The notes beneath the pieces are model-generated. The model was not told where the DNA came from and searched no databases. It saw nothing but the letters and a program-made list of their open reading frames with translations. The translations under genes and the position numbers were made by a program. Shown here in pieces: positions 5,811 to 10,575 of a DNA stretch of 21,184 nucleotides. Each line of letters begins with the position of its first letter. Within the stretch, counting starts at the first letter, position 1. The stretch is taken from positions 1-21,184 of the IMG/VR virus record IMGVR_UViG_3300042444_000709; one strand, written 5' to 3'. The DNA comes from a virus.

Positions 5811-5814
5811 GTGC

Positions 5815-5995: not shown

Positions 5996-6382
5996 ATGAT
6001 CAAGCACATCCTGTCCGCCGCAAAGTCAACCATCAGTCAACCCGAGCCGGTTCCCTCGCCTGCGCCAGAAGCCAAGCCCGAGGCCATCCTCAAAGCCGCC
6101 CCACTGTCTGACCAGCAGCTCGCCGAGACTGTCGCCAAGCAGGTCGGCTACCAACCCGGCGACCAGGTCACCGGCGCCGTTCTCCCCAAGAAGATCCCCA
6201 ACGGACGCCTGCTCTACGTCTCGGTGCCCGACTGGAGCGAGCCAGTGATCTGCTCGGTGCAAAACGCCGCGGACTGGTCGGCCGGCGAGCGGATCAAGTG
6301 TGTGTACGTCAAGGCTGACCCTGAGGGTCGCCTCGTCTTCGAGAACCGCGACGGTATCCGCCGCAACCGGTGGCGCCGATGA
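5996..6382 (+). CDS. S1/OB-fold-like protein, 128 aa
   Basis: ATG 5996 has no clear Shine-Dalgarno; a TTG at 5942 is in frame but less likely. The N-terminus is a Pro/Ala/Glu linker (residues 14-38). From about 50 on, YQPGDQVTGAVLPKKIPNGRLLYVSVPDW...DWSAGERIKCVYVKADPEGRLVFENRDG has the strand rhythm of an S1-like OB fold (G..V.G.V ... G..IKC.V...D.EGRL). The end is basic (IRRNRWRR). It may bind RNA or ssDNA. First gene of the replication operon; its stop overlaps the initiator start (ATGA). Confidence 0.45.
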   Translation: MIKHILSAAKSTISQPEPVPSPAPEAKPEAILKAAPLSDQQLAETVAKQVGYQPGDQVTGAVLPKKIPNGRLLYVSVPDWSEPVICSVQNAADWSAGERIKCVYVKADPEGRLVFENRDGIRRNRWRR

Positions 6383-7218
6383 GCGTAGCCGCCACCAACT
6401 ATGTCTGGACCCAGTCGCCCGCGGAAGGCGCCGACCGGCTTGTCCTGCTGGCCTTGGCAGATTTCGCTGATGAGGCGGGCAACTGCTTCGGCTCTTGGGG
6501 CAAGCTCGAGGAGAAGACCCGCCTTGCCCGCCGGACAGTTGCCGACTGCCTGCGCCGCCTCCAGAAGTCCGGCCAACTGGTTCTGGTTGAGCGCGGCAGC
6601 CGAAAGGTCGCCGGCAGCGGCCTGCAGGCCAGCATCTGGACCATTCCCGGTGTGGCCGAGATGGGTGCAGGAAATGCACCTAAGTCCGAGAGATGGGTGC
6701 AGGAAATGCACCCAAGTGGTGCAAATGCTGCACCTAAGTGGTGCAATTCCTGCACCCCAACAATAGATAACAATAAGAAACGAAATATAAGCGCTGACGC
6801 GCCAGCTCCGGCGATTTCATCGCCTTCGCATCCTTCTTCCTCGGAAGTAGCGGCACCCAAACCAAAACGCGCCGCCGCTCCCAAATTTGACCCAGCATCA
6901 TTGCCCCTGCCCCACGGCCCCGGCCTCGCCCGCGCCTGGGCTGAGTTCGCCCAACACCGCCGCGAGATTAAAGCCCCGCTCACGCCCACCGCGGCCAAGC
7001 GCATCGTGGACGACCTCGCATCTGTCAACGAAGCCGCCGCCGTCGAAGCCCTGCGCAAGAGCGTGAAGCACGGCTGGCGCGGCGTCTTCATCGAAGCGCC
7101 GAAAGCCACCGCGCCCATGCTCGTTACTCTGCCACCCCAAGGCCAACCCAAGCAAACCGCCCTCGAGCGCTCCCTCGCCGAGATGCGCGAGCAGTTCGCA
7201 AAGGAGAACGCAGCGTGA
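6379..7218 (+). CDS. Lambda O-like replication initiator
   Basis: 279 aa from ATG 6379 (ATGA overlap). Residues 5-75 form a winged-helix domain typical of phage replication initiators: NYVWTQSPAEGADRLVLLALADFAD, then FGSWGKLEEKTRLARRTVADCLRRLQKSGQLVLVERG. A low-complexity linker (about 95-175) carries the origin iterons in its DNA. A helical C-terminal domain (180-279, with LARAWAEFAQHRREIKAPLTPTAAKRIVDDLA) probably contacts the helicase. This matches the lambda O plan: N-terminal origin binding, ori in the middle of the gene, C-terminal partner binding. The phage DnaB at 9193 is the likely partner. Confidence 0.8.
   Translation: MSVAATNYVWTQSPAEGADRLVLLALADFADEAGNCFGSWGKLEEKTRLARRTVADCLRRLQKSGQLVLVERGSRKVAGSGLQASIWTIPGVAEMGAGNAPKSERWVQEMHPSGANAAPKWCNSCTPTIDNNKKRNISADAPAPAISSPSHPSSSEVAAPKPKRAAAPKFDPASLPLPHGPGLARAWAEFAQHRREIKAPLTPTAAKRIVDDLASVNEAAAVEALRKSVKHGWRGVFIEAPKATAPMLVTLPPQGQPKQTALERSLAEMREQFAKENAA
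6664..6792. other. Replication origin: four palindromic iterons plus AT-rich unwinding stretch, inside the initiator gene
   Basis: Four 17-bp imperfect palindromes of form GGTGCA-N5-TGCACC lie at 6664-6680, 6696-6712, 6718-6734 and 6740-6756. The arms are perfect in all four; the spacers are GGAAA, GGAAA, AATGC and ATTCC. Starts are 32, 22 and 22 bp apart, with (T/C)AAGT following the first three. Immediately after the last iteron, 6759-6790 is about 80% A/T and purine-rich on this strand. The arrangement copies lambda ori (four iterons, then an AT-rich DUE, within gene O). The initiator dimer would bind each palindrome. Confidence 0.8.
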
Positions 7219-7688
7219 CGCAGCCAATTTTATTCGCGATGGAAGAAGGCATCCACGCTCCGGTGACTGGCAGTGCGGTCAGCCTGTCTTCCAACCGCAA
7301 GGGCGAGATCGCTGAGACCCTTTTTATCGCCGGCGCCATGGTGAACGACTGGGAAATCTTTGTGCCGTTTGGCCACGCGCAGACGACTGATGTTTGCATC
7401 GTTAAGCCGAGCAAAACTCCGGTCAAAGTGCAGGTCAAAATGGCCTCATTGGTTGAGGCTGGTGGCTACCAAATACACACCAAAAAGTCTTCAACTGGCG
7501 ACAAGAAGCACATGGCCTACGAGCCTGGAGACTTTGATGTTCTTGCTGCGTATCTGCAGGACCGCAATCAATTCGTCTTTTGGGCGGCTGAGGACATCAT
7601 CCACAGACAAAGCGTCCGCTACTGCCCTACCCGACACCGTCAACCCGGCAACTGGGTACTCCTAGACCAAGTCGCAACTGCAATCTGA
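7215..7688 (+). CDS. PD-(D/E)XK nuclease-like protein
   Basis: 157 aa from GTG 7215 (GTGA overlap with the initiator). The core shows the PD-(D/E)XK pattern: NRKGEIAETLF (E31/E34 on the first helix), TTDVCIV (D59), then VKVQVK (Q73, K75), followed by YEPGDFDVLAAYLQDRNQFVFW. This resembles the PDDEXK_5 group that includes the intron nuclease I-Ssp6803. It may cut or repair replication intermediates, or be a homing-type nuclease. The last codons lie in the stem of the downstream terminator. Confidence 0.65.
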   Translation: MTQPILFAMEEGIHAPVTGSAVSLSSNRKGEIAETLFIAGAMVNDWEIFVPFGHAQTTDVCIVKPSKTPVKVQVKMASLVEAGGYQIHTKKSSTGDKKHMAYEPGDFDVLAAYLQDRNQFVFWAAEDIIHRQSVRYCPTRHRQPGNWVLLDQVATAI

Positions 7689-7716
7689 GAAACCAGTTGT
7701 TTTTTTTTTTTTTTTT
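7675..7716 (+). terminator. Intrinsic terminator with 17-base T tract
   Basis: CAACTG (7675-7680) pairs with CAGTTG (7694-7699) around a 13-nt loop that holds the stop codon of the upstream gene. A run of 17 T follows directly (7700-7716). The stem is short but the T tract is very strong, so it should end the initiator operon transcript. The following gap (7717-7820) contains a weak TTATCA...TATACG promoter-like pair and nothing else recognised. Confidence 0.55.
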
Positions 7717-7820
7717 CAGCGAAGAACCTCCACGCAGTTATCAACAACCACTAAAACACTTTATACGCCCCTAAGACAGCCAATGTCCTACCCCTGCTTG
7801 TACATTTGACCAGTAACTTT

Positions 7821-8003
7821 ATGAAACCCGCAAAGAAAACCACCAAGACGGCGAGCGCCCGCAAGGCGCCGAAAGCAACCAACCTCCAAGTCAACGTGGA
7901 ATACCTCGAGCAGATCGCCGACGAGGCTATCAGCACAATCATGGTTTTGCGCGCCTTGGTCGCACAGCTTGCCATGAAGCAGGAGGAAAACGATGCACGC
8001 TAA
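7821..8003 (+). CDS. Small protein with basic Lys/Ala N-terminus, 60 aa
   Basis: ATG 7821, first gene after the terminator and without a Shine-Dalgarno. N-terminal MKPAKKTTKTASARKAPKA is a flexible basic tail; residues 23-58 (LQVNVEYLEQIADEAISTIMVLRALVAQLAMKQ) form an amphipathic helix. It could be DNA-binding or an oligomerising accessory factor. The next gene begins 11 bases before its stop. No family is recognised. Confidence 0.5.
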   Translation: MKPAKKTTKTASARKAPKATNLQVNVEYLEQIADEAISTIMVLRALVAQLAMKQEENDAR

Positions 8004-8175
8004 GAACGGCCGCCCCATCAAGCTGGAGGAAGGCGTCCCGGGTTACCCGCAGATGCACCACCTCCAGATTCACCGCGCGTGCGACCGGTTCCTTGAGGGC
8101 CGCGGACTGGCCACGGTCAGAGCGTCCCGCCGCAACACCTGGCTCTTCGGTAAGTCGGCAAGGAGGGCAAAATGA
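7993..8175 (+). CDS. Hypothetical protein, 60 aa
   Basis: ATG 7993 is preceded by AGGAGGAAAAC, a strong ribosome site lying inside the upstream gene. The product (starting MHAKNGRPIKLEEGVPGYPQ) is basic and ends in RRNTWLFGKSARRAK. Its stop overlaps the next ATG (ATGATG at 8172). No family is recognised; a nucleic-acid-binding role is possible from charge only. Confidence 0.5.
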   Translation: MHAKNGRPIKLEEGVPGYPQMHHLQIHRACDRFLEGRGLATVRASRRNTWLFGKSARRAK

Positions 8176-8423
8176 TGGTGCCCGATTTGGTGGTCGGCGA
8201 GATCGGTTTCGGCAATAACTTCGGCTCCTCCGCGGAGCTGGAGTTTATGCGCAGCGAAGACCGCCGGCAGACCGCCGAAATCAAAGACCTACAGGCCGAA
8301 AACCGTGAGCTGATTAAGCGCAACAACCGGCTCAAGCGTGTCCTAGAGCGCTGCGCGGCGCTAACCGATGCCATCGCCAGCGAAAAGCACGAAGCCCTGC
8401 TTGAGGCTGCCCAGCCGCTATGA
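8172..8423 (+). CDS. Coiled-coil protein, 83 aa
   Basis: ATG 8172 follows AAGGAGGGC. Residues 22-65 (AELEFMRSEDRRQTAEIKDL, then QAENRELIKRNNRLKRVLERC) have leucine-zipper-like heptads. The N-terminus (MMVPDLVVGEIGFGNNFGSS) is a separate, non-helical segment. Probably a dimer. It resembles the 2270-2509 product in type, not clearly in sequence. No function is assigned. Confidence 0.55.
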   Translation: MMVPDLVVGEIGFGNNFGSSAELEFMRSEDRRQTAEIKDLQAENRELIKRNNRLKRVLERCAALTDAIASEKHEALLEAAQPL

Positions 8424-8629
8424 GCCTGCGCTACGAACAATATTGGTCCCTCCGGCGCACCCGCCAGCTCCTTGCCGACCTTCTGCACCCCAGCACTCGG
8501 CCAAGGACGGTCAAAGAGCTGCGCGGCCGCGCGTCCGCCTGCCTGCGCCACTTCCCGCTCCTCGAAGAATCTGGCAAGCCGATCTTCTCGCAAGACGAGT
8601 TTGCTTCACCGGAGGGCCACGAACTATGA
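8420..8629 (+). CDS. Hypothetical protein, 69 aa
   Basis: ATG 8420 overlaps the upstream stop and its own stop overlaps the next ATG. MSLRYEQYWSLRRTRQLLADLLHPSTRPRTVKELRGRASACLRHFPLL reads as three short helices with a basic face; the end (SQDEFASPEG) is acidic. It is of the small DUF type common beside phage replication genes. No family is recognised. Confidence 0.55.
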   Translation: MSLRYEQYWSLRRTRQLLADLLHPSTRPRTVKELRGRASACLRHFPLLEESGKPIFSQDEFASPEGHEL

Positions 8630-8886
8630 GCGCCGGCAAAGGCGACAGCCCGCGGCCGGTCAACGGCGACCGCTACCGGGCCAACTACGAGGCGATCTTC
8701 ACGCCGCCCTACCCCGACTGGATCTGCCGCCCATGCGGCCAAGCCCGCGGCCGCGGCATGCCCAAAGGCCACGTCTCGACTTGGCACCAAGACACCTGCG
8801 GCGTCTGCGGCGAGGTCACCTCGGTCACCGAACCCCGAGATTTTCGCCACCTAAAAAAATGGCCCATCCGCCCAAAAAACCCTTGA
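8626..8886 (+). CDS. Zinc-ribbon-like small phage protein, 86 aa
   Basis: ATG 8626 overlaps the previous stop. The N-terminus MSAGKGDSPRPVNGDRYRANYEAIF is a motif recurring in small phage proteins ('GDxPRPVNxxxYxxNYxxIF'). Then come two Cys pairs, CRPCG and CGVCG, separated by about 26 residues with two His (HVSTWH) between them: a likely zinc ribbon. The end is basic. It may bind nucleic acid or protein. The function is unknown. Confidence 0.65.
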   Translation: MSAGKGDSPRPVNGDRYRANYEAIFTPPYPDWICRPCGQARGRGMPKGHVSTWHQDTCGVCGEVTSVTEPRDFRHLKKWPIRPKNP

Positions 8887-8890
8887 TTCC

Positions 8891-8920
8891 CATGCCTACA
8901 TTTGCCAACATATGCCTACA
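8891..8920. repeat. Three 10-bp-phased TGCC(A/T)ACA boxes before the helicase gene group
   Basis: Three consecutive 10-mers (catgcctaca, tttgccaaca, tatgcctaca) start at 8891, 8901 and 8911, sharing TGCC(A/T)ACA at exact 10-bp steps. They fill the only real gap (8887-8952) between the zinc-ribbon gene and the gene pair ahead of dnaB. The core TGCCAA and the 10-bp step match the boxes around the regulator at 909-1460, so this is a candidate second operator. Confidence 0.5.
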
Positions 8921-8952
8921 GAACACGCCACGACAGAAAGTAGTCACCAGTC

Positions 8953-9168
8953 ATGGCTAACCACGAATACCAGCCGCCACCACCGCCCGAACACCACATC
9001 ACGCCATGGCTCGAAGAATCATTTCGCTTAGTCGATGCCGCCTGCGACCGCTGGGAGCGGCGCCGCGCGCAGCTCGCCCGGAGGAAGAAAGAAAATGAGC
9101 GTCAGCGAACTCACGCTTTTGAGCCTGCTGATGTGCGCGCTGATCTTCATTGTCATAGTGATGACTGA
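8953..9168 (+). CDS. Hypothetical protein, 71 aa
   Basis: ATG 8953 follows the phased boxes. N-terminus MANHEYQPPPPPEHHITPW is proline- and histidine-rich. Residues 24-53 are a charged helix (LVDAACDRWERRRAQLARRKKENERQR), and the tail is acidic and His-rich (DVRADLHCHSDD). No family is recognised. The 3' part overlaps a membrane-peptide gene in another frame (9095-9196), so one of the two C-terminal readings may be less constrained. Confidence 0.45.
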   Translation: MANHEYQPPPPPEHHITPWLEESFRLVDAACDRWERRRAQLARRKKENERQRTHAFEPADVRADLHCHSDD

Positions 9169-9196
9169 TGACGACGACGAAGGGAGATTTTCGTGA
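9095..9196 (+). CDS. Single-span membrane peptide, 33 aa
   Basis: ATG 9095 with GGAGGAAGAAAG upstream. The sequence MSVSELTLLSLLMCALIFIVIVM is almost wholly hydrophobic, and is followed by TDDDDEGRFS. Its stop overlaps the dnaB GTG (GTGA), which is typical of coupled genes here and argues that it is real despite its length. A one-pass peptide of unknown role; it may simply couple translation to dnaB. Confidence 0.5.
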   Translation: MSVSELTLLSLLMCALIFIVIVMTDDDDEGRFS

Positions 9197-10575
9197 AGCG
9201 CACCGTTCCCCAATCACCCGCCGTTGAGCAAGCCGTCCTCGGCAGTCTGCTCGCCGACCCGCGCCTCGTTGACGAAGTCGCCGGTCTTCACGCCGATCTT
9301 TTCTTCACACCCGCGCACCGGCTGGTCTTTGAGACCATCACCGAGATTCGCAGCGAGGGCGGCACGCCGAACCTTATCGCCACCACGCAGCGGATCGACG
9401 CGAAGCACAAGCTGAACTTTGTCGGCGGCGCTGGGGCCATCACCGAGTTTCTTTCGCAGTCTGCCGGCGGTCCCGCGGGCGTTGAATATCACGCGCAAAC
9501 ATTGCGCGACCTCCATGCTCGCCGCCGCATCATTGACTCTGCCGTTGCGATGCAGGCGGCGGCGCAGGACATGGCTACGGATGCTGACAGCGTCCTGCAG
9601 CAGTCCGGCGAAGCGGTCTTGAGCCTTTCGCTGACCACCGCCACCGACTCCATGCGCGCACCGAGCGCCATTGTCCCGGGCCTGCTTGACGAACTGGAAG
9701 CCCTCATGTCTGGCGGCCGGAAACTCGGCTTGCAGACCGGAATCCGCGACTTCGACCAAGTCACCGGCGGTCTCCGCGGAGGACAGCTCACGATTGTCGC
9801 CGGCCGTCCCGCCATGGGCAAAAGCGCGTTGATGTTGAATATGGCGGACAACATGGCCCGCCGCGGTGTGCCGGTCGTTTACTTCAGCCTTGAGATGCCC
9901 GCCAACGAGTTGGCCGCTCGCGTTGTCTTGAGCCGCGCCGAGACTAATACCGAGATCATTCGCAACGGATTCCTCACCGCTTCCATGAAGCACCGGATCA
10001 TGGATGCCGCCACGCAGTTTGCCAGCGAACCGCTCTACGTTGATGACCGCGGCGGCCTCACCCTCTTGGACATCCGCGGCCGCGCCCGCCTAGCCGTCCG
10101 CCGCTGGGGCGTGAAGGCAATCTTCGTAGACTACCTGCAGCTCGTCAGCCATTCCGGCGCCCAGTCCCGCGAAAACGAAGTTGGCTTCGTCAGCCGCGGG
10201 CTAAAGGCCATGTCGATGGAACTCGGCATCCCAGTAGTCGCCGCCGCGCAGGTTAACAGGCAGGCCGAAAACCGCAGCGACAACCGCCCCAAGCTCTCCG
10301 ACCTCCGCGAGTCCGGCAGCATCGAACAGGACGCCGACATCGTGTGTTTGGTTCACCGCCCTTGCTACTACGCTGTGCAAGACCAAGAACCCGACCCGCA
10401 AGATGCCGAATTGATCGTTGCCAAGCACCGCGCTGGCCGCACCGGCACACTCAACCTCACATGGCGCCCCTCGCTCACCCGCTTTGAAGGCACTGCCCCG
10501 GTCGGCCGCACCAGCGACAGCGATGGCTCGGTCTACGCGCCGGCGAAACAACTTTGGGAGGCCATCAATGAATAG
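9193..10575 (+). CDS. dnaB: Replicative DNA helicase, DnaB family
   Basis: 460 aa from GTG 9193, with AGGGAG six bases upstream. The N-terminal DnaB domain (about 5-110, with SPAVEQAVLGSLLADPRLVDEV) is followed by a linker and a RecA-type motor. Motifs are Walker A GRPAMGKS (204-211), FSLEMP (231-236), Walker B IFVDYLQL (310-317), the arginine-finger region NRQAENRSDNRPKLSDLRESGSIEQDAD, and a C-terminal VAKHRAGRTG motif. It forms a hexamer that unwinds DNA at the fork and is loaded by the phage initiator (6379-7218). It overlaps the resolvase-like gene by eight bases. Confidence 0.96.
   Translation: MKRTVPQSPAVEQAVLGSLLADPRLVDEVAGLHADLFFTPAHRLVFETITEIRSEGGTPNLIATTQRIDAKHKLNFVGGAGAITEFLSQSAGGPAGVEYHAQTLRDLHARRRIIDSAVAMQAAAQDMATDADSVLQQSGEAVLSLSLTTATDSMRAPSAIVPGLLDELEALMSGGRKLGLQTGIRDFDQVTGGLRGGQLTIVAGRPAMGKSALMLNMADNMARRGVPVVYFSLEMPANELAARVVLSRAETNTEIIRNGFLTASMKHRIMDAATQFASEPLYVDDRGGLTLLDIRGRARLAVRRWGVKAIFVDYLQLVSHSGAQSRENEVGFVSRGLKAMSMELGIPVVAAAQVNRQAENRSDNRPKLSDLRESGSIEQDADIVCLVHRPCYYAVQDQEPDPQDAELIVAKHRAGRTGTLNLTWRPSLTRFEGTAPVGRTSDSDGSVYAPAKQLWEAINE

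Follow-up and report, generated by a model that had tools for sequence, protein, structure and literature searches.

A probable replication origin inside the O-like initiator gene of a freshwater phage, and the variety of its iterons among relatives

Why would a phage gene carry, in the middle of its coding sequence, four copies of one palindrome with an AT-rich stretch directly behind them? Origins inside O-like genes are textbook knowledge for lambda, and a preliminary description of the locus had proposed an origin of this style, with its own iteron sequence, in a gene resembling lambda O. We followed up this proposal in a window of 21,184 bp (the whole stretch of DNA that was analysed), an IMG/VR virus record from a freshwater phage. 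We conclude that the array is very probably the phage's own theta-replication origin, located inside the gene of its own initiator and bound by that initiator.

A palindromic array in the linker-coding part of the initiator gene

The preliminary description placed four GGTGCA-N5-TGCACC palindromes, the last three at constant steps of 22 bp, and a 32-bp AT-rich stretch directly behind them, in the linker-coding part of a lambda O-like gene. All of this was confirmed (table 1). The four palindromes are exact, their start-to-start distances are 32, 22 and 22 bp, and the 5-bp spacers that separate the last three are CAAGT and TAAGT. The window holds no further match even when two mismatches are allowed, a count that is not significant by itself since 7 of 100 shuffles reach it. 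The AT-rich stretch ranks first in AT among the 32-mers of the window. The initiator matches PHROG 678, 'replication initiation O-like' (4.4e-23), and further replication-initiation PHROGs, and its residues 17-65 match Pfam HTH_36 (E = 3.8e-6). Two AlphaFold2 models, of modest confidence (mean pLDDT 63, pTM 0.35), place helices at residues 17-28, 40-47 and 51-64, plus wing strands, in a winged-helix domain that spans residues 1-90, and further helices at residues 181-196, 203-214, 218-231 and 261-278 in the C-terminal domain. Between the two lies a disordered linker of low confidence (residues 97-158 in one model and 96-162 in the other), whose coding sequence contains the iterons as well as the AT-rich stretch.

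Table 1. Positions of the features discussed, in the coordinates of the window.
Feature	Position	Strand	Basis and remarks
Lambda-O-like replication initiator gene, 279 aa	6379..7218	+	ATG at 6379, stop TGA at 7216-7218; PHROG 678, Pfam HTH_36
N-terminal winged-helix DNA-binding domain (predicted), residues 1-92	6379..6654	+	HTH_36 match; AlphaFold2 helices and wing strands
Recognition helix, residues 51-64	6529..6570	+	AlphaFold2 helix; contains Arg52 and Asp56, both tracking iteron type
Iteron 1, GGTGCAGGAAATGCACC	6664..6680	none	Exact pattern match
Iteron 2, GGTGCAGGAAATGCACC	6696..6712	none	Exact pattern match
Iteron 3, GGTGCAAATGCTGCACC	6718..6734	none	Exact pattern match
Iteron 4, GGTGCAATTCCTGCACC	6740..6756	none	Exact pattern match
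AT-rich stretch, candidate DNA unwinding element	6759..6790	none	81% AT, more than any other 32-mer of the window
C-terminal helical domain, residues about 177-279	6907..7215	+	AlphaFold2; candidate helicase-recruiting part; common to relatives with different iterons
DnaB-like replicative helicase gene	9193..10575	+	Pfam DnaB_C 4e-85, PHROG 19 2.7e-94; presumed to be loaded at the candidate origin

A chance origin of the four-palindrome array is excluded. When the gene was recoded synonymously, keeping the protein and resampling codons by phage usage, four sites arose in 0 of 20,000 sequences and the maximum of three was reached twice; codon shuffles of the gene gave at most two copies of any 6-N5-6 palindrome. 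Repeats in a coding sequence could also reflect selection on a repeated linker peptide and not on the DNA. Two of the four sites indeed encode similar peptides, GAGNAP and GANAAP, and GANAAP-like linkers occur in many unrelated relatives. However, the sites occupy frames 0, 2, 0 and 1, and no two of them yield the same peptide (GAGNAP, VQEMHP, GANAAP and WCNSCT). Hence, with three reading frames in use and differing peptides, the repeated thing is the DNA. Among relatives, moreover, the linker peptide changes completely with the iteron type while the palindromic repeats persist. We find peptide selection hardly credible as the source of the repeats: the DNA sequence of the iterons is under selection, and the peptide accommodates it.

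We then scored families of near-palindromes within genes. The window initiator gene scored 12, which 0 of 200 shuffles reached. The score also recovered the known iterons of two positive controls, being equalled by 0 of 200 shuffles for lambda O and by 1 of 200 for P22 gene 18. Nothing significant was found in lambda P, in P22 gene 12 or in eight other genes of the window. The score misses asymmetric repeats that are visible by eye, e.g. those of Vibrio phage H20 and Pseudomonas D14E. Of 53 genes of PHROG 678 taken from bacterial genomes, 17 had significant palindrome scores, against 32 of 409 neighbouring frames; this is a noisy lower bound, as the targets include duplicate loci and the control frames include antisense reads.

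The array can also be searched for without using any protein. We scanned all 2.9 million viral contigs for two adjacent GGTGCA-N5-TGCACC sites and matched 102 stretches, whereas the scrambled control GCGTGA, with the same base composition and layout, matched none in the same contigs. An array of GGTCA-N7-TGACC matched 14 times in these contigs. A tandem of GGTCTCA-N3-TGAGACC (type B below) gave no matches, because natural type-B arrays are imperfect. A winged helix lies in the open frame spanning the array at 75 of the 80 GGTGCA loci listed, and in 74 it ends just before the array; at the remaining five, the stretch examined leaves little or no open frame 5' of the array. Among 30 diverse representatives of the GGTGCA arrays, a replication-initiation PHROG is matched by 25 and HTH_36 by 23; four of the 30 prove to be winged helices when read in the right frame.

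Iteron types and winged helices among relatives

We collected at least 80 related loci (numbered with L below) from viral contigs, with 46-100% identity, and added further relatives by C-domain and alignment searches. Some, such as L005, L009 and L059, come from near-complete contigs of about 40 kb. At the same position of the gene, these relatives carry different repeats while the protein backbone is kept. We distinguished nine iteron types: A, that of the window (GGTGCA-N5-TGCACC); B (GGTCTCA-N3-TGAGACC); C (GGTCTAA); D (TGACAATTTGTC, in 5-8 copies); E (TGACGC-N-GCGTCA); F (GGTCAG-N3-CTGACC); G (GTGTCAGCGTGACA); H (mixed GTGTCA and GGTCCA); and I (GTGTCGCCA). In nearly all relatives of every type, the last iteron is immediately followed by the 32 bp of the gene that are richest in AT, with type D varying in their position. 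The lambda-style order that had been proposed, i.e. winged helix, iterons in the linker, AT-rich element and C-terminal domain, is thus found in the window and in its relatives. Phages and prophages of several bacterial phyla show the arrangement, with a large variety of iterons. GGTGCA iterons almost identical to those of the window recur in distant initiators, that of the uncultured human-saliva phage D_HF5_3 (L168, 2447-3370) and those of prophage-like genes in Chloroflexi and Corynebacterium (L169 and L174), by either shared descent or convergence.

It had also been claimed that the protein and its binding site co-evolve in one cassette. We examined this with trees of 74 distinct genes carrying the nine iteron types. 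(Trees were preferred to clustering, since at 85% the N-domains of types A and B fell together, joined by intermediates.) The N-domain tree needs 8 changes of iteron type, the minimum for nine states (shuffled mean 39.9), against 31 in the C-domain tree (shuffled mean 41.6), and we met no case in which the iterons were not conserved while the domain was. The claim is well supported by this difference, and can be refined into two processes. The first is the replacement of the whole cassette between unrelated winged helices. For example, the DNA of L055 (type E) and L004 (type A) is 85-92% identical in the 300 bp 5' of the start codon, 38-64% over positions 0-400 and 74-88% thereafter. The DNA of L026 (type A) and L039 (type B) differs only at about 100-400. 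C-domains can be identical where iterons differ (L026/L039 and L041/L079, with C-domain identity up to 100%), and the same iteron can accompany C-domains that are only 26-28% identical (L005 and L027). On these comparisons, the exchanged unit is the winged helix plus its iterons, the C-terminal half being retained. Since the iterons lie inside the linker-coding part, the winged helix and its site would travel as one exchangeable cassette. The second process consists of a few changes of recognition-helix and wing residues inside one winged-helix family. The fixed differences between types A and B comprise two in the recognition helix (R52A and D56R) and six in the wing region (residues 74, 77, 80, 82, 83 and 88), with none in residues 1-50. 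Between types B and C, the fixed changes are R56N and Q62R in the helix, none in residues 65-92 and five in residues 1-50.

The C-terminal half is itself a mosaic. In L005, L027, L053 and L063, several unrelated helical domains stand under the same N-terminal cassette, and the C-terminal ends carry two or more tail peptides, TALERSLAEMREQF versus AERRMLALEAL.

Iteron type might follow the N-domain through physical closeness alone, hitch-hiking on recombination without any functional pairing, given that the winged-helix DNA adjoins the iterons and that the whole 5' part was exchanged in several pairs. Closeness can be held roughly constant by comparing short segments about equally far from the iterons: residues 1-45 of the N-domain need 9 changes, and residues 1-45 of the C-domain need 27. 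This argues against mere proximity. Hitch-hiking also sits poorly with types A and B, where every fixed difference falls in residues 52-88 (recognition helix and wing), and with the reappearance of the residue-iteron link in distant winged helices. We consider it most unlikely, and favour functional pairing of the winged helix with its iterons.

Two recognition-helix residues and the iteron sequence

The differences between types point to positions 52 and 56. Across the first 60 clusters, Arg52 is present in 31 of 32 GGTGCA genes and in 7 of 28 others, and Arg56 in 0 of 32 and 18 of 28, respectively; this comparison was made post hoc, on data already seen. Before reading the genes of 11 named phages, we fixed the prediction that Arg52 together with a residue other than Arg at position 56 implies GGTGCA. 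It was correct in all 11 cases, nine or ten of which belong to one broad group of relatives, so that homology helps the hit rate, although this group holds both outcomes. GGTGCA or TGCACC half-sites were present in PhiR40_1, PhiR49_2, Ayreon, AsXd-1 and PseuP_222; GGTGCA half-sites were absent from ZF40, V039C, BUCT708, S107, SI5 and V1.266. The Ayreon protein combines Arg52 with Asn56.

In an enlarged set (n = 87) the table reads 39/3 versus 6/39, the 27 added genes contributing 8/2 versus 2/15. The rule fails for L344 and L328, which were predicted to have GGTGCA where none was found, and for L317 and Vibrio H20, which were not predicted and have two half-sites each (on a loose count). After correction for relatedness, the number of supported independent pairs was one for the first set and six for the enlarged set, where about 4.6 agree and none is opposed (p about 0.06). 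This tree-corrected support is suggestive, and makes the two-residue rule a strong lead, short of proof.

We propose the following rule for the winged-helix superfamily, and rate its chances of holding about equal to those of failing. Arg52 would read G4 of the half-site (GGTG), with small or polar residues going with other bases (GGTC), and residue 56 would set the inner bases. As part of this joint rule, Arg56 would accompany GGTGACA or GGTCTCA, Asn56 would accompany GGTCTAA, and a residue other than Arg at position 56 combined with Arg52 would give GGTGCA. In DNA recognition, Arg usually prefers guanine and Asn adenine, and the change of half-site from GGTCTCA to GGTCTAA alongside that from Arg to Asn would fit these preferences. 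Three initiators with both Arg52 and Arg56 (L320, L321 and L488) share palindromes of the GTGACA type, a hint of a further rule. If the rule is true, the specificity of an initiator could be read from its sequence and re-addressed by two changes.

The unit of protein and site has been swapped among relatives so frequently that the letters of the site can largely be predicted from two amino acids. In each O-like gene a protein is accompanied by its probable DNA target, and the family thus supplies natural winged-helix/DNA pairs for asking how a DNA-binding domain shifts its specificity yet keeps its origin. It would also allow the origin of many uncultured phages to be located from sequence alone.

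Proposed origin function and relation to known systems

By analogy with lambda, we envisage each 17-bp palindrome as a binding site of the N-terminal winged helix, which would most likely act as a dimer and place a recognition helix on either GGTGCA half-site. The four complexes, at 32, 22 and 22 bp (about 3, 2 and 2 helical turns), would assemble into an O-some-like body beside the AT-rich stretch, which would melt, and the C-terminal domain would recruit and load the phage-encoded DnaB helicase, a role suggested for this domain by the gene content. Major capsid and terminase genes lie further downstream of the DnaB-like gene.

Three other features of the window deserve mention. The gene at 7215-7688 overlaps the end of the initiator gene and encodes a PD-(D/E)XK nuclease-like product (PF11645, 1e-12). 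Directly 3' of it, a run of about 17 T (7701-7717), unusual for a phage with 60% GC, may represent the tail of a terminator or have arisen in assembly. Finally, a 527-aa open frame at 2868-4451 matches PHROG 1008 (DNA methyltransferase) in two stretches (1e-18) and is without a Pfam match.

Cumulative GC skew, which the preliminary description had named as a check on the origin, gave no clean support. The G-C maximum, at position 5813, precedes the first site by about 0.85 kb, and to its right the + strand has more C than G, opposite to the usual leading-strand sign. A peak 0.55-0.7 kb 5' of the initiator gene, with this unusual sign, is found in the window and in six of eight relatives. The contig is a fragment, and there may be a second origin elsewhere in the genome. 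A turn upstream of the gene, and not at the repeats, would suit a winged-helix protein for which the repeats are operators only, repressing transcription through its own gene, with replication starting elsewhere. Spaced palindromes with winged helices are also typical of repressors, and Foldseek with the initiator model retrieved generic winged helices only, MarR-like regulators being the best and none having E < 0.001; a sequence search of solved structures with the initiator found no relative. However, the sites are not at a promoter but some 0.3 kb into the gene, they are fixed to the linker, and an AT-rich stretch follows them in nearly every relative. The array representatives of the protein-blind scan match replication-initiation families. 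Furthermore, the proteins with this layout in other phages, lambda O, P22 gp18 and SPP1 gp38, bind origins (PMC7466680, PMC6316719). A role as operators only is very unlikely in our judgement, and we retain the origin as the preferred reading.

The initiator is homologous to known ones: PHROG 678 is common to it, lambda O (1.7e-35) and P22 gp18 (2.5e-38). The window combines a winged helix of the O family, inverted-repeat iterons in the linker and an adjoining AT-rich element, and by these sequence features its candidate origin belongs to the lambda O/P22 gp18 kind, with an iteron of its own. Lambda has four iterons of 18 bp and an AT-rich stretch of 38 bp (PMC3349717), Stx phages have 4-6 iterons, and lambda O binds its iterons as a dimer, the AT-rich stretch being opened (PMC7466680). 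The window resembles lambda O/ori-lambda and the Stx phages P27 and 933W in having inverted-repeat iterons in the middle of the gene (four, as in lambda) with the AT-rich stretch directly behind. As had been stated, its 17-bp iteron is unlike that of lambda. Moreover, neither of the lambda O models phrog_277 and phrog_2365 matches the C-terminal half, and the gene order departs from the lambda O-P subtype: the next gene encodes the PD-(D/E)XK product, a DnaB is encoded by the phage itself, and Pfam and PHROG recognised no lambda P in the window outside the small genes at 7806-9168.

With its own DnaB and no recognised lambda P, the window is closer to the P22 gp18-gp12 model than to lambda. 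The origin of P22 is annotated within its O-like initiator gene (gene 18), a phage DnaB homologue (gene 12) lies downstream, and P22 gp18 matches PHROGs 678 and 345, as does the window initiator. The DnaB-like gene of the window is likewise downstream and on the same strand. The two differ in their iterons, which have TTTACC arms in P22, and in the position of the helicase gene, which overlaps the initiator gene in P22, whereas about 2 kb with small genes and the PD-(D/E)XK gene intervene in the window.

Other systems are more remote. In SPP1, oriL is located inside gene 38 (PMC6316719). The likeness is one of layout; SPP1 differs in having another origin, oriR, besides oriL and in loading its helicase with a separate protein, gp39. 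RepA_N/DnaD-type plasmid initiators of Gram-positives have a DnaD-like winged-helix N-terminus and iterons inside the rep gene, and Foldseek gave weak matches to the initiator entries 4pql and 4pt7 (E 0.05-0.08) and to 5kbj. As Pfam DnaD_N scored 13.3 bits on the window initiator against a cut-off of 27 (E 0.096), we treat these plasmid initiators as analogues and not as relatives. Iteron plasmid Rep proteins (Rep_3, RepE or pi type) are set apart by the absence of a Rep_3 domain among the Pfam matches of the initiator up to E 0.1. An exchange of the winged helix with retention of the C-terminus was already known from Gordonia phages, for which the available portion of one report describes near-identical initiator C-termini with unrelated winged-helix N-termini in close relatives; that portion differs from our account in making no mention of a DNA site moving with the winged helix (PMC10684548). 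In the literature searched, which covers few subscription journals and may have missed earlier reports, the known cases are exceeded in two respects, the breadth of iteron types found in a single gene family and the link of this variety with two residues of the recognition helix.
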